Shown in pieces: positions 18,094-55,960 of a DNA stretch of 64,000 nt. The translations under genes were made by a program, and so were the position numbers. Numbering within the stretch: the first letter of the stretch is position 1; every line of letters begins with the position of its first letter. The notes beneath the pieces are model-generated. The model was not told the DNA's origin. It saw only the letters and a list, made by a program, of their open reading frames with translations, and searched no databases. The DNA is from Culicoidibacter larvae (lineage in GTDB: Bacteria > Bacillota_I > Bacilli_A > Culicoidibacterales > Culicoidibacteraceae): contig NZ_VBWP01000004.1 of the NCBI RefSeq assembly GCF_005771635.1, positions 62,001 through 126,000 of the forward strand. The letters are read 5' to 3'.

Positions 18094-18119
18094 TAAAATA
18101 ATTCTAGGGGGAATTGATA

Positions 18120-19361
18120 ATGAAACGAAAAATAGGTATTGCTCTTTTAGCAATTTTTTTAATGTGCGGTTTACAGACTAGTGTGTTTGCCGAGAGCACT
18201 GATGAAAAACAAATAACACCGACACTTAGGCTATTAAGTTATGAAACTGCAGATTTGAACGGTCGTGGTTCAGTCACTTTCTCAGGTTCAGCTATATATA
18301 ATAAGCCCTATAAGTATATTACAGTAACCAAAACAGTAACACTTACTAATACATCTAACACAACAATGAATGCACAATTATATTTGCCATTCTTATATAC
18401 ATATGGATTGTCAGAAACTGATAATACTTCATACGACTACATAGGTTACCCCTCAAAATGGGACAGCAGTGTTAATAAGTTTTTTTATAATGGATATGTA
18501 ACGAATGGTGGTTACGTTGGTGCAGTTGTCGGTGATGAAGTAACATTAAGCTACCCATTACGTAAGGATTTGAAAGATGCACAATATTTTATTAATGATA
18601 TAGTGTATAAACAAGCAGATCTTGCTGATTGGCGACCGGATATCCCGATTGTTCGCGAACTTGCTCAAGAGGGCGAAGATGAGACAATTATTGCTTTTGA
18701 CATGGGTGAATTAGCTCCAGGAGAAACGCGAACTTTCAGTTTTGACTTCAAAAATTATGGTATCCCGACATACGCTGGAGTGAGTGGTATTGATGTAGTT
18801 ACTTATTTACGTACAGAATATATTGCAAAGCCGGTAACAGTTCAATATCACGATGAGAATGGTGATGCCATTATTGCTGCTGATGTTATCAATGAAAACG
18901 GTGAGCAGTTGTTAGATGAACCTTATACAACAACACCTAAGGAAATTTCTGGTTATAGATTGGTTGCAACACCTGAAAATGCTAAAGGTATCCTCTCAGA
19001 AGAAGAACAAACGGTCGTTTATCGCTACCAGAAGATAACTGATGGTAATGTTATTGTTAATTATCTTGATGAATCCGGAAACGCTTTGACTGATGCAACG
19101 ATACTTACAGGTGAAGTCGGCAGCAATTACCAAACCGAGGCAAAAGCAATTAATGGTTGGGAATTAAAAAATACTGTTGGTAATGCCAGTGGAACTTATA
19201 ATGTTACTGACCAAACTGTCAATTATATTTATCAGCCAATTGCAATAGTTGATTCATTACCGAATACTGGTGAGAATCATGATGCTTATATTGCCATAGG
19301 GTTAGGAATTGTATTTGTTGCCGGTACGATGTTGACTATACTTAAGATTAAAAGGAAATAA
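18120..19361 (+). CDS. LPxTG-anchored surface protein with two MucBP-like repeats
   Basis: The 413-residue product has a signal peptide (about 1-24, cleavage after VFA) and an N-terminal domain of about 210 residues that I do not recognise. Two MucBP-like repeats follow, one beginning KPVTVQYHDENGDAI and one GNVIVNYLDESGNAL, each ending in the VVYRYQ or VNYIYQ pattern. The sorting signal LPNTG comes next, then a membrane helix and KIKRK. Sortase would attach it to peptidoglycan. MucBP repeats suggest contact with host mucin or other glycans, which is an inference. ATG 18120 lies 8 bp after AGGGGG. The gene has its own promoter and terminator. Confidence 0.85.
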   Translation: MKRKIGIALLAIFLMCGLQTSVFAESTDEKQITPTLRLLSYETADLNGRGSVTFSGSAIYNKPYKYITVTKTVTLTNTSNTTMNAQLYLPFLYTYGLSETDNTSYDYIGYPSKWDSSVNKFFYNGYVTNGGYVGAVVGDEVTLSYPLRKDLKDAQYFINDIVYKQADLADWRPDIPIVRELAQEGEDETIIAFDMGELAPGETRTFSFDFKNYGIPTYAGVSGIDVVTYLRTEYIAKPVTVQYHDENGDAIIAADVINENGEQLLDEPYTTTPKEISGYRLVATPENAKGILSEEEQTVVYRYQKITDGNVIVNYLDESGNALTDATILTGEVGSNYQTEAKAINGWELKNTVGNASGTYNVTDQTVNYIYQPIAIVDSLPNTGENHDAYIAIGLGIVFVAGTMLTILKIKRK

Positions 19362-21654: not shown

Positions 21655-23682
21655 GTGAAAAAAATTTATAAAGTACTTTTTACTATGCTGCTTATTGCTG
21701 GAATTTTTTCAGCTTTGGTAGTAAAAGCAAATGCTGTTATTGAAAATGGTGACAACATTTTCAGCAGTACAGGGAAATACAATGTTCAAACATTATCATC
21801 ACTTTCAAGGGATATTTATGGAAATACCGTAAAATCTAATGAATTTAAACCAATTACATATACCAAATCAACCGCAACGGCTACAGTCGCAAAAGCTTAC
21901 ATGGGCTTTATTACTGAGTCATTTAATCGTGCGAGTTTTGCACGTCATTATGCATCAATCATTCCGCCATATGATTATTATTCGGTTGATTATTCAAATA
22001 ATGGCGGTGCAACGAAAACCAATGTCGGAACTCAGGCAATTGACCGTTCAAATAGTGATTTTGAAAAAATAGTCACGCCACCTGCAGGTTATGAGTTAAC
22101 TCATTCAGACGCTTATTATCAAATGATTGATGTTACTGATATAGTAAATCAAAATGGTTCTGGCAACTATTATCTAAATGGCGCCAATGCATCAACAACT
22201 GGATTTACCCAAATGGGTGTCGTTTTTATGATTGTCATTGAAGAGGATGCTAGTTTTCCGTTGCGATATACGGCAATAAATGATTTCTTTTATTCAAATG
22301 ATGCTGATAAGAATGAATTGCTTGAATATACAGTAAATCTACCAAAAGAATATACTTTCGTTGAAAATTCGCCAATTAGCATTCATAATTTGGCTACGAC
22401 GATGGACTATTCAGTAAGTGGAGCAGAAGATAAAGTAACCGGATATGTTCAGCAATTTACTGATGGAATCGCAAATGGTAGTGAAGAAATGTTGCTTAAT
22501 TCGCAAGTTCCGGGTCCAGATGTTTTAAATACTAGCCTGACACACAGTCCGGATCGCTTCTTTAATGCAATGTCATGGAATAAATCAACTTTTCAGTCAA
22601 AAACAAATATTGATGGTTTAGCATTTAAACTTGATGTTAGACCTGCTCCTGGTACCGGGCCAATGAATAAAACCGAAGTAGCTGCATTTAATGTCATTTC
22701 TGCTGATGTTGTAAAAGATGTTGAATTAGTAAAAACGGTTGATAAAGCTAATGCTCAACCAGGTGATGAATTAACTTACACATTAAATGTTGCTAATGAT
22801 AGTGGCTTTACAGTCTATGATTACCAAGTAAGTGATATCCTTCAGGATTTGAATAAAGTAAACTATAAACTTGAATCTATTACTGTTGATGGCGTTGCTC
22901 AAACTGATGCTATTGATGGCGATCAGGCTAATTTCACTAACGGTAAGTTGACCGTTGACTATGCAAACTTACAAAATGGTCAAAAAAGTCAGATAATTTT
23001 CAAAGTAATTGTTCAAGAAGCAGCAATTGGCACAACGATTACTAATACTGCCTCAATTCAAGACACCACAGACCCGACAACGATTCGAGAGACTGACCCA
23101 GTCACAACAGATGTTATTGGCGTTGAACAAGCGTCAGTAATCAAAACAGTGGATAAAGCAACGGCTAAACCAGATGAGTTACTAACTTACACAATTACTG
23201 TTGCCAACACAGGACAAATAGATTTAAAGAATTATGTTATGACCGATGTGTTGCAAGACTTAAATAAAGTTGAGTATATTATTGATTCGATCAGTGTTGA
23301 TGGCACTGCTCAAACTGATGCTATTGATACTGATAACACAAGTTATGTAGCCGGAACTATTGCAGTGAAATACCCGGAATTATCAGTTGGTCAAACTAGT
23401 ACTATTACCTTTAAAGTGAAGGTGCTAAAAGGTGCTGAAAATTCAACTATTGAGAATATGGCTTCAATTGGTAATCCGGAGAGCCGGACACCAGAAATTA
23501 TTACACCACCAGTTGAAACCAAAGTTCCGGGAAATGCTCCTGAACCTAAGTCTGACTCAAATAACAATACGCCATTACTGCCAATTACTGGTTCTAATAA
23601 CTTCGAAATTCTGACTTTTGGAATCCTATTTTTGACTTTTGCTGGATACCTTATGTATAAAGCGCGAAAAAAGTTATTTTAA
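21655..23682 (+). CDS. LPxTG-anchored surface protein with two DUF11-type repeats
   Basis: The 675-residue product starts at GTG 21655, 8 bp after GGGGGA. It has a signal peptide (about 1-27, ending KANA) and an N-terminal domain of about 320 residues that I do not recognise. Two repeats of about 130 residues follow, of the DUF11 (conserved repeat) type. Each opens with a KTVDKA motif, passes LTYTxxVAN and DxLQDLNKV, and shares VDGxAQTDAID. Such repeats often carry isopeptide bonds and act as stalks. The C-terminus has LPITG, a membrane helix and RKKLF. An adhesin role is plausible but unproven. A TATAAT lies at 21615-21620. Confidence 0.83.
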   Translation: MKKIYKVLFTMLLIAGIFSALVVKANAVIENGDNIFSSTGKYNVQTLSSLSRDIYGNTVKSNEFKPITYTKSTATATVAKAYMGFITESFNRASFARHYASIIPPYDYYSVDYSNNGGATKTNVGTQAIDRSNSDFEKIVTPPAGYELTHSDAYYQMIDVTDIVNQNGSGNYYLNGANASTTGFTQMGVVFMIVIEEDASFPLRYTAINDFFYSNDADKNELLEYTVNLPKEYTFVENSPISIHNLATTMDYSVSGAEDKVTGYVQQFTDGIANGSEEMLLNSQVPGPDVLNTSLTHSPDRFFNAMSWNKSTFQSKTNIDGLAFKLDVRPAPGTGPMNKTEVAAFNVISADVVKDVELVKTVDKANAQPGDELTYTLNVANDSGFTVYDYQVSDILQDLNKVNYKLESITVDGVAQTDAIDGDQANFTNGKLTVDYANLQNGQKSQIIFKVIVQEAAIGTTITNTASIQDTTDPTTIRETDPVTTDVIGVEQASVIKTVDKATAKPDELLTYTITVANTGQIDLKNYVMTDVLQDLNKVEYIIDSISVDGTAQTDAIDTDNTSYVAGTIAVKYPELSVGQTSTITFKVKVLKGAENSTIENMASIGNPESRTPEIITPPVETKVPGNAPEPKSDSNNNTPLLPITGSNNFEILTFGILFLTFAGYLMYKARKKLF

Positions 23683-23726
23683 AAGTTATTGTATTTTTTC
23701 GATAAGACATTAGTATAAAAGAAAAT

Positions 23727-23765
23727 ATGGCAAGTCCTCAGGACTTGCCATGTTAAAATTTTTAG
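23727..23765 (+). terminator. Terminator-like hairpin after the second LPxTG gene
   Basis: A perfect 11-bp stem (23727-23737 with 23741-23751) has a 3-nt loop. The T run starts only 8 bases later, so termination may be partial. Confidence 0.6.
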
Positions 23766-23774
23766 GAACTTAAA

Positions 23775-23930
23775 CGTGGGTCAGAGTTGGAAGCAACTCG
23801 TCTTCGGTCGGATTGGTTGTAATTGAATAGGTGAAAAAGCTGACACCGAAAACTATTTTTCAAGGCCACGGAAGTACCTTCTCATTTACTAGATATAGAG
23901 ATTGAGCCGCTGAATAGTGGCTTTTCTTTT
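23775..23930 (+). ncRNA. Unassigned structured-RNA candidate upstream of ftsK
   Basis: This roughly 155-nt non-coding stretch can fold compactly. An outer stem pairs CGTGG (23775-23779) with CCACG (23866-23870), and an inner stem pairs GTCAG (23780-23784) with CTGAC (23840-23844). A 5-bp hairpin with a GAAG loop lies at 23785-23798. TCGGT (23804-23808) can pair with ACCGA (23845-23849), which would make a pseudoknot. A small hairpin at 23871-23881 and an intrinsic terminator (stem 23905-23911 with 23916-23922, then T's) follow. It matches no riboswitch, 6S, SRP or tmRNA pattern I know. It could be a small RNA or a leader. The promoter is unclear. Confidence 0.45.
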
Positions 23931-23941
23931 TGGTATTTTTT

Positions 23942-23950
23942 TGCTATAAT
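23942..23950 (+). promoter_or_regulatory. Extended -10 promoter for ftsK
   Basis: TGC-TATAAT lies directly after the upstream terminator's T run and 14 bp before the ftsK start codon. Confidence 0.55.
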
Positions 23951-23964
23951 TGGGAAGAGATTAT

Positions 23965-26331
23965 ATGAAGAAAGATGGTATGTTGCGCATGGCGGGAAAA
24001 TCCAAGCGTTTGAGCAAAAAACAAAAAAATCATTTATTTATTGAGATTATTGGTATCTTGCTGATCGGGTTTACAGTTTTATGTATTTTGGGGGAATTTG
24101 GCTGGACTGGTGTTTTTGGTGATTTCTTAATTCGAGCTATTGCATTTGCAGCCGGGTTTTTACGCTTTTTTGTTTATATTGTGTTATTATGGCTGGCTTT
24201 TCATTTGATTAAGAATCGTGAATTGCCACAGATGAGTTTAAAATATTTAGGCGCCGGACTGATTATTTTTTCTGTTCTGGTGTTTTGTTCTTTTGATTAT
24301 ACTACGGCGACATTTAATGATTACTTAACTCGTTTTTTTGCTGAGTTGAGTAAAACGCCGCTGCCAATATTGCCGCTCGGCGGCGGCATTATTGGCGTCA
24401 GTGTATTTGTGGCTTTAAACCAAATCGTTTCAAGTGCAGGGACATATGTAATTGTTGTAGCTTTATTCTTCATTGGATTAATTTTATTTTTACGACGTTC
24501 AGTTTATGATTTCTTTGAGCATTCAGCTAAAAAGACACAAGAACAGTTAGTGCAGGTAAAGGATCGAATTGCTGAGTCAGCACAAAATCGTCGTGATGCT
24601 AAAGCGTTTGATATTGAAGAAAGCGAAGCTAATTATGATGATGTTGAAATTTATGATCCGCAAAGTGATTGGCCGGAATTAATTACTGAAAATGAACCGG
24701 TTGTTGAGGAATTTGAATTACTGGGAGAACATGGTGATTCATTTGATTTAATTGAACCGGATTTTGATGAAGAAGAATATGGTATTGATGCTGACCATCA
24801 TGAGTATGCGGCAGCAGAAGCTATCGACTCAGCTACTCCGGAAAGTACTGATATTGAATGGCATGATGGTTCAGAATTACAAAGTGAGCAGGTTAATATG
24901 GATTTATATACTTTGCCGCCAATTCAATATTTAAAAAATGTGCCGAAGGCAAAAGGGAATACTGCTCATTCAGCAGCGCGCAATAATGCTGAACGTCTGC
25001 ATCAAACTTTTGAAAGTTTTGGTATTAAAGCTCGTGTTACTAATATTAATATCGGGCCGGCTGTTACTCAATACGAAATTACATTGGAGCCAGGAGTGAA
25101 GGTGAGCCGGATTGCCGGGCTTTCTGATGATATTGCATTAGCGCTTGCAGCTAAAGGGATTCGGATTGAAGCACCAATTCCTGGAAAATCTGCTGTCGGT
25201 ATTGAAGTGCCAAATGAAAGTATTCAAATGGTTGGCTTACGTGAAGTATTAGAGCCATCAATTCATGATTTAGAACAAAAGCTTTTAGTAGGGCTGGGGC
25301 GCGATATTGCCGGTGATGTTATTATGACTGCCTTAAATAAGGCGCCGCATTTGCTGGTTGCCGGAGCTACCGGTAGCGGTAAGAGTGTTTGTATCAATGG
25401 TATAATTACAAGTATTTTGATGCGAACTAAACCATCAGAAGTGAAGTTTTTGATGATTGATCCTAAGAAGGTTGAACTTAACGTATATAATGATATTCCG
25501 CATTTGTTGGCACCAGTTGTTACTGATCCGAAGAAAGCGGCAGTTGCTTTACGCAAAATTGTCGTTGAGATGGAAGAACGTTATGAAAAATTTGCCCGTG
25601 AAGGGGTTCGTAATCTTGAAGGCTTTAATGAATTACAAGTAGAAGAAGGCAATGTGCCGTTGCCATATATTGTTGTTATTATTGATGAGTTAGCAGACTT
25701 AATGGTTGTTGCTGCTAAGGACGTTGAGGATGCAATTATGCGTCTGGCACAAATGGCGCGGGCTGCCGGGATTCACATGATTGTAGCAACTCAGCGACCA
25801 AGTGTTGATGTTATCACCGGAGTTATTAAATCAAATATTCCTTCGCGGATTGCTTTTGCAGTTTCATCACAAATTGATTCAAGAACAATTTTAGACATGG
25901 GTGGTGCTGAGAAACTCGTAGGCCGCGGCGACATGCTTTATCTGCCTATGGGTGAATCTAAACCTATTCGGGTCCAAGGTGCATATGTTTCTGAACCTGA
26001 AATTGAGAAGGTAGTTAATTTTGTTAAGAAACAGCAGGCGGCAAATTTTGATGAGGCATTGACTCATTTAGAAGTGCAAGAAAGTGATAATAATGCTTTT
26101 GATGAAGTGGATAAAGATTTTGATGATGTAGTACAGTTTGTTATTGAAACCCAAAAAGCATCAGCATCATTGTTGCAAAGACGTTTCCGCTTCGGCTATA
26201 ACCGGGCAGCACGAATTGTTGATCAGATGGAAGAACGAGGTATTGTTGGACCAAGTGAAGGCAGCAAACCGCGTCAAGTTTTTTATACTGATTATGATCA
26301 GTGGCTGGAAAGCCAAAATATTCAAAGCTAG
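23965..26331 (+). CDS. ftsK: DNA translocase FtsK/SpoIIIE
   Basis: This hexameric motor pumps chromosomal DNA through the division septum. The 788-residue protein has an N-terminal domain with four or five membrane helices (about 25-180), an acidic linker (about 200-310), the alpha and beta motor domains with Walker A GATGSGKS near residue 466 and Walker [12 protein letters not shown], and a C-terminal winged-helix gamma domain (about 710-780) that reads polar DNA motifs. ATG 23965 follows GGGAAGAG. A TTG at 23950 lies inside the -10 element and is rejected. The partner recombinase gene xerD is at 14722. Confidence 0.93.
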
Positions 26332-26505: not shown

Positions 26506-26548
26506 ATGCAGTTTTAGTTTGGAGACAACTAAAACTGCATTTTTTTTA
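26506..26548 (+). terminator. Riboswitch-controlled terminator of xpt
   Basis: A perfect 14-bp stem (26506-26519 with 26527-26540) is followed by eight T's, immediately before the xpt ribosome site. GCATA (26485-26489) can pair with TATGC at the foot of the stem (26505-26509), which could contribute to an antiterminator. Ligand binding would be expected to stop transcription. Confidence 0.93.
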
Positions 26549-52306: not shown

Positions 52307-52339
52307 AAAAACGGATGAATAAAAATCATCCGTTTTTTT
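52307..52339 (+). terminator. Strong intrinsic terminator after glgP
   Basis: A perfect stem of at least 11 bp (52308-52318 with 52326-52336) is followed by T's. Confidence 0.93.
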
Positions 52340-55678: not shown

Positions 55679-55960
55679 ATGAAAAAAATCATTTTAATTA
55701 TGAGTAGCCTGGTTGTACTGGCGATTGTTGGTTTTATTGGCTACCCATGGTTTGATAAAGAATATGGTAAGCATTGTGAGCCATATGTGGAGGGGCGCAT
55801 TAGCGACTTGAAACAGAATGGCGAAATGCTTTATTTCAAAGTTGATGATGAAATATATTTTGCCACCAAAGATGATCTTGTTAAACAAGTTAAGGCAAAT
55901 GATGGTAACTCATTAAAGTTACAATATATAAAAGAAACCGGTGAAATTTGTAATATATAA
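55679..55960 (+). CDS. Small exported or membrane-anchored protein, unknown function
   Basis: This 93-residue protein has a single N-terminal hydrophobic segment (about 3-24), then a short domain with two Cys (about residues 32 and 91) and a strand pattern (GRISDLKQNGEMLYFKVDDEIYFAT). I do not recognise the family. AAGGAGTG lies 7 bp before ATG 55679. TATACT at 55647-55652 may be the -10. It has its own promoter and a strong bidirectional terminator, which supports a real gene. The two Cys could form a disulfide outside the cell, which is an inference. Confidence 0.65.
   Translation: MKKIILIMSSLVVLAIVGFIGYPWFDKEYGKHCEPYVEGRISDLKQNGEMLYFKVDDEIYFATKDDLVKQVKANDGNSLKLQYIKETGEICNI

Follow-up and report, generated by a model that had tools for sequence, protein, structure and literature searches.

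The minus strand of the gap between an LPXTG-type surface protein gene and ftsK in Culicoidibacter larvae may encode a small, standalone noncoding RNA that would end near position 23717, a tentative reading that draws on folding models and to which we give a probability of about 0.4. Positions are those of the window, i.e., the whole 64,000-nt stretch of contig NZ_VBWP01000004.1 that was analyzed. From left to right, the gap holds a perfect hairpin, a core block, a + strand terminator and an extended -10 element, and the G+C content of the core block is 0.43 compared to 0.28 and 0.32 in its flanks. The features are as follows:

21655-23682, + strand: gene of an LPXTG-type surface protein with DUF11 repeats, upstream neighbor of the gap
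23717-23751, minus strand: perfect hairpin (23727-23751) ATGGCAAGTCC-TGA-GGACTTGCCAT with the tail ATTTTCTTTT, putative terminator for the minus-strand RNA, from its T-rich minus tail
23763-23880, minus strand: candidate RNA core, a three-way junction, from the minimum free energy structure (identical to the drawn one), z-score and ensemble diversity
23879-23877/23766-23764, 23875-23872/23771-23768 and 23870-23866/23779-23775, minus strand: closing helix P1
23799-23784, minus strand: 6-bp hairpin P2
23853-23845/23808-23800, minus strand: P3, 9 bp including one U.G pair, with a 36-nt loop
23904-23931, + strand: intrinsic terminator AGCCGC/GTGGCT (stem 23904-23923) with a T tail, by pattern
23942-23950, + strand: extended -10 element TGCTATAAT of the probable ftsK promoter, from the promoter scan
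23960-23965, minus strand: TATAAT, possible -10 element of the minus-strand RNA, paired with a weak -35 (TGCGCA) 18 nt away
23989-26331, + strand: ftsK, with ATG 23989 (MAGKSK...) as the likely start and 23965 and 23980 as alternative starts

The minus-strand RNA would fold into the three-way junction of P1, P2 and P3 and leave the C/A/U-rich loop of P3 open. Compared to dinucleotide shuffles of the core, the minus strand folds moderately better (z = -2.28, 4 of 200 shuffles being as good), with a single structure making up 43% of the ensemble. P3 is complete on this strand only, as its U.G pair becomes a C.A mismatch on the + strand. For a core with bounds fitted to its own closing helix, and with two strands and several statistics examined, the ensemble diversity was 0.022 per nt against a shuffle mean of 0.212, and none of 150 shuffles was as low. 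With the best of several offsets allowed, the diversity lay below that of 900 out of 900 shuffles, and it ranked second lowest among 25,552 windows of 118 nt taken in 5-nt steps on both strands. This measure fails to single out known RNAs, the values being 0.184 for a tRNA window and 0.382 for a purine riboswitch window, neither of which was trimmed to its closing helix.

The hairpin 23727-23751, followed by its T-tail, would form the end of the minus-strand RNA. Its stem is longer on the + strand (14 pairs compared to 11), while the better T-tail is found on the minus strand (ATTTTCTTTT on minus vs. AAAATTTTTA on +). Among 12 hairpins of at least 11 pairs that follow genes, only two have more T in the minus tail than in the + tail, namely this one (7 vs. 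5) and the one at 52307 (5 vs. 4). The RNA would start at some point right of 23880, possibly around 23953 if transcribed from the TATAAT at 23965-23960, the only candidate to the right of the core in a promoter scan that found no strong minus-strand promoter; it is quite possible that this TATAAT is a chance occurrence in AT-rich sequence. Since no minus-strand gene lies downstream, the product would act as an RNA, and the simplest action would be antisense pairing, be it in trans via the open loop or with the convergent LPXTG mRNA, whose 3′ flank it would overlap. When this loop was matched to 47 translation starts in the window, two of them alternative starts of ftsK, it paired no better than expected, with 69 of 100 shuffled loops doing as well. 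An anti-Shine-Dalgarno action of the loop found no support.

About equally likely is an ordinary spacer, in which the LPXTG gene is followed by two serial terminator hairpins in its 3′ flank and then by the ftsK promoter, and the minus-strand fold is a matter of luck. In line with this, the fold energy of the whole gap including both hairpins (z = -3.4 on the + and -3.7 on the minus strand) is typical of the 23 gaps of at least 90 bp in the window; the gap-wide significance is due to the two flanking hairpins and appears only when these are included. Moreover, the low diversity of the minus-strand core is nearly equaled by a coding-gene window (0.024), and neither a homolog nor an Rfam match was found for the gap. 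On the other hand, a central block that combines a G+C content above the gap average with a low-diversity fold speaks against a mere spacer. So does the first hairpin, which lies 42 nt past the stop codon of the LPXTG gene and has a poor + tail. In 9 of the 11 other listed cases, the distance from the stop codon to the first hairpin of at least 11 pairs is 1-25 nt; the two exceptions (162 and 175 nt) come after a tRNA and a purine riboswitch.

The homology searches covered the gap at several levels. As in the preliminary description, the gap is unassigned: a search with Rfam 15 gave no match at the gathering score and a permissive search gave 15 weak matches far under their thresholds. A tRNA scan found none, and none of the titles seen in a literature search dealt with an RNA before ftsK. 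DNA searches revealed neither a second copy of the block in its own genome nor a homolog in 60 relatives, plasmids, phages and E. coli genomes. The best DNA match in a relative (genome G001, E = 9.3e-6) was merely a promoter-like TTTTTTTGCTATAAT before another gene and was rejected. A covariance model (R1), built from one sequence and run with strict filters so that distant homologs would be missed, gave only chance-level matches in the 60 relatives and in 395 genomes from its class (E per genome 0.72 in G001, 0.78 in G037 and 0.048 in G093), of which those in G001 and G093 lie inside long protein genes. In viral contigs, a 14-base pattern matched at least 120 times, which is chance level, and a 24-base pattern had no match. 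In the comparison sample, the genus is represented by a single genome, the family by one other (G001, 78% complete) and the order by two more. A scan of the genome contigs for FtsK gave 80 loci, mostly of Bacillaceae and Enterococcus and none from a near relative. In seven of the eight relatives shown, the text before ftsK resembles the closing part of an RNase J gene; hence, the LPXTG neighbor and the block look lineage-specific.

An RNA of the + strand was the original proposal, with a start after or within the first hairpin, a pseudoknot and an end at the terminator 23904-23931. All of the elements named for it are in the sequence: the nested stems CGTGG/CCACG (23775-23779/23866-23870) and GTCAG/CTGAC (23780-23784/23840-23844), the GAAG-loop hairpin GAGTTG-GAAG-CAACTC (23784-23799) and the complementarity of TTCGGT (23803-23808) to ACCGAA (23845-23850), which crosses GTCAG/CTGAC. 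The final terminator is also good by pattern and specific to the + strand, its G.U pair becoming an A.C mismatch on minus, and the exact four-part topology was reached by none of 1000 core shuffles and 1 of 1000 whole-gap shuffles, counts that are post hoc and not p-values as the test was written after the topology had been seen. However, these elements mostly amount to no more than chance on the + strand, where the core folds no better than its shuffles: its free energy was -27.7 kcal/mol, while the shuffles averaged -25.3 (z = -0.74) and 49 of 200 did as well, the strand comparison gave z = -0.72 (40 of 200), and three choices of ends gave z-scores from -0.7 to +0.3. The core contains four GC-rich 5-bp stems against a shuffle mean of 1.5, a count reached by 99 of 1000 shuffles. 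Its + strand ensemble is ill-defined, with a lower or equal diversity in 68 of 150 shuffles and, in a second test, in 254 of 300. The putative pseudoknot, proposed from a 5-bp complementarity, is unsupported. Furthermore, the promoter scan detected no convincing + strand promoter between 23683 and 23763. Each strand carries some evidence of an intrinsic terminator of its own (23751-23717 on minus and 23904-23931 on +), as would be looked for in a small RNA, and the + strand terminator probably ends transcripts arriving from the LPXTG gene ahead of ftsK. A + strand RNA is unlikely, and the minus strand, with its well-defined predicted fold, is a moderate candidate. More generally, stems found by hand should be tested on both strands, as G.U pairs and T-tails may indicate the opposite one.

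The pairing proposed for the pseudoknot survives on the minus strand, with GUCAG directly after P3 and UGAC directly between P2 and P1. An elaborate form of the minus-strand RNA would be lineage-specific, with the P3 loop pseudoknotted to the linker between P2 and P1 and with a promoter placed head-on over that of ftsK, so that transcription of the two would be mutually exclusive. We regard this form as quite improbable. With P2 and P3 formed, no unpaired linkers are left, and full formation of the pseudoknot thus looks strained.

Even less probable is a small protein or leader peptide encoded before the + strand terminator by a 24-codon ORF (GTG 23831 to TGA 23905), the stop codon of which abuts the terminator, given its GTG start, its lack of a clear ribosome-binding site and a codon score that only reaches the 1.6th percentile when ranked among real coding pieces. 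In line with the earlier view, no convincing ORF fits the gap, as the three frames that overlap the core (21-35 aa) score below at least 98% of 24-codon pieces taken from real genes. A housekeeping RNA in divergent copy (6S, tmRNA or SRP) would suit the size and isolated position of the block and nothing more, and has a negligible chance of being correct, as 6S, tmRNA and SRP RNA are all found above their family cut-offs elsewhere in the genome and none matches the gap.

Orphan intergenic small RNAs are known in Firmicutes, as are cis-antisense RNAs that overlap a 3′ UTR. The minus-strand candidate resembles the former in its isolated gap, raised G+C content, defined fold, own terminator and lack of an ORF, but differs in being known from sequence alone and without relatives. 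Similar to the latter, it would overlap the convergent LPXTG mRNA in its 3′ flank, although its end, some 35 nt past the stop codon, would leave the coding sequence free. It shares a standalone position and a similar length with 6S RNA (RF00013), whereas its fold is a three-way junction and the 6S RNA of this genome sits at G000:C2:132650-132834. A small RNA beside ftsK may be a fairly ordinary case; should the block be transcribed, it would add another species-restricted small RNA to a lineage of Firmicutes that has been poorly sampled.

The preliminary description had placed the ftsK promoter after the terminator, which is probable from the extended -10 element, although the best -35 matches at only three of six bases. 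An identical TGCTATAAT precedes ftsK in loci L036 and L039. In the only genome of the same family, TTTTTTTGCTATAATAGGGTAGAG lies before an unrelated gene (G001:C58, L024, minus strand, approximately 2065-2035) and is near-identical to the -10 region of ftsK; the two probably represent a shared type of extended -10 promoter.

Elsewhere in the window, two genes of LPXTG-type surface proteins, both on the + strand, are found upstream of ftsK, one with MucBP (18114-19361) and the other being the DUF11 gene (21655-23682). A purine riboswitch (RF00167; 26392-26493, +) and, after it, a terminator-like hairpin (26506-26540) precede a phosphoribosyltransferase gene. The gap of 449 nt between argS and the gene of a HAD-type hydrolase holds a small ORF (55679-55960, +; MKKIILIMSSLVVLAIVGFIGYPWFDKEYG..., about 94 aa as read by eye), which resembles a small secreted or membrane protein and is flanked on both sides by terminator-like hairpins.
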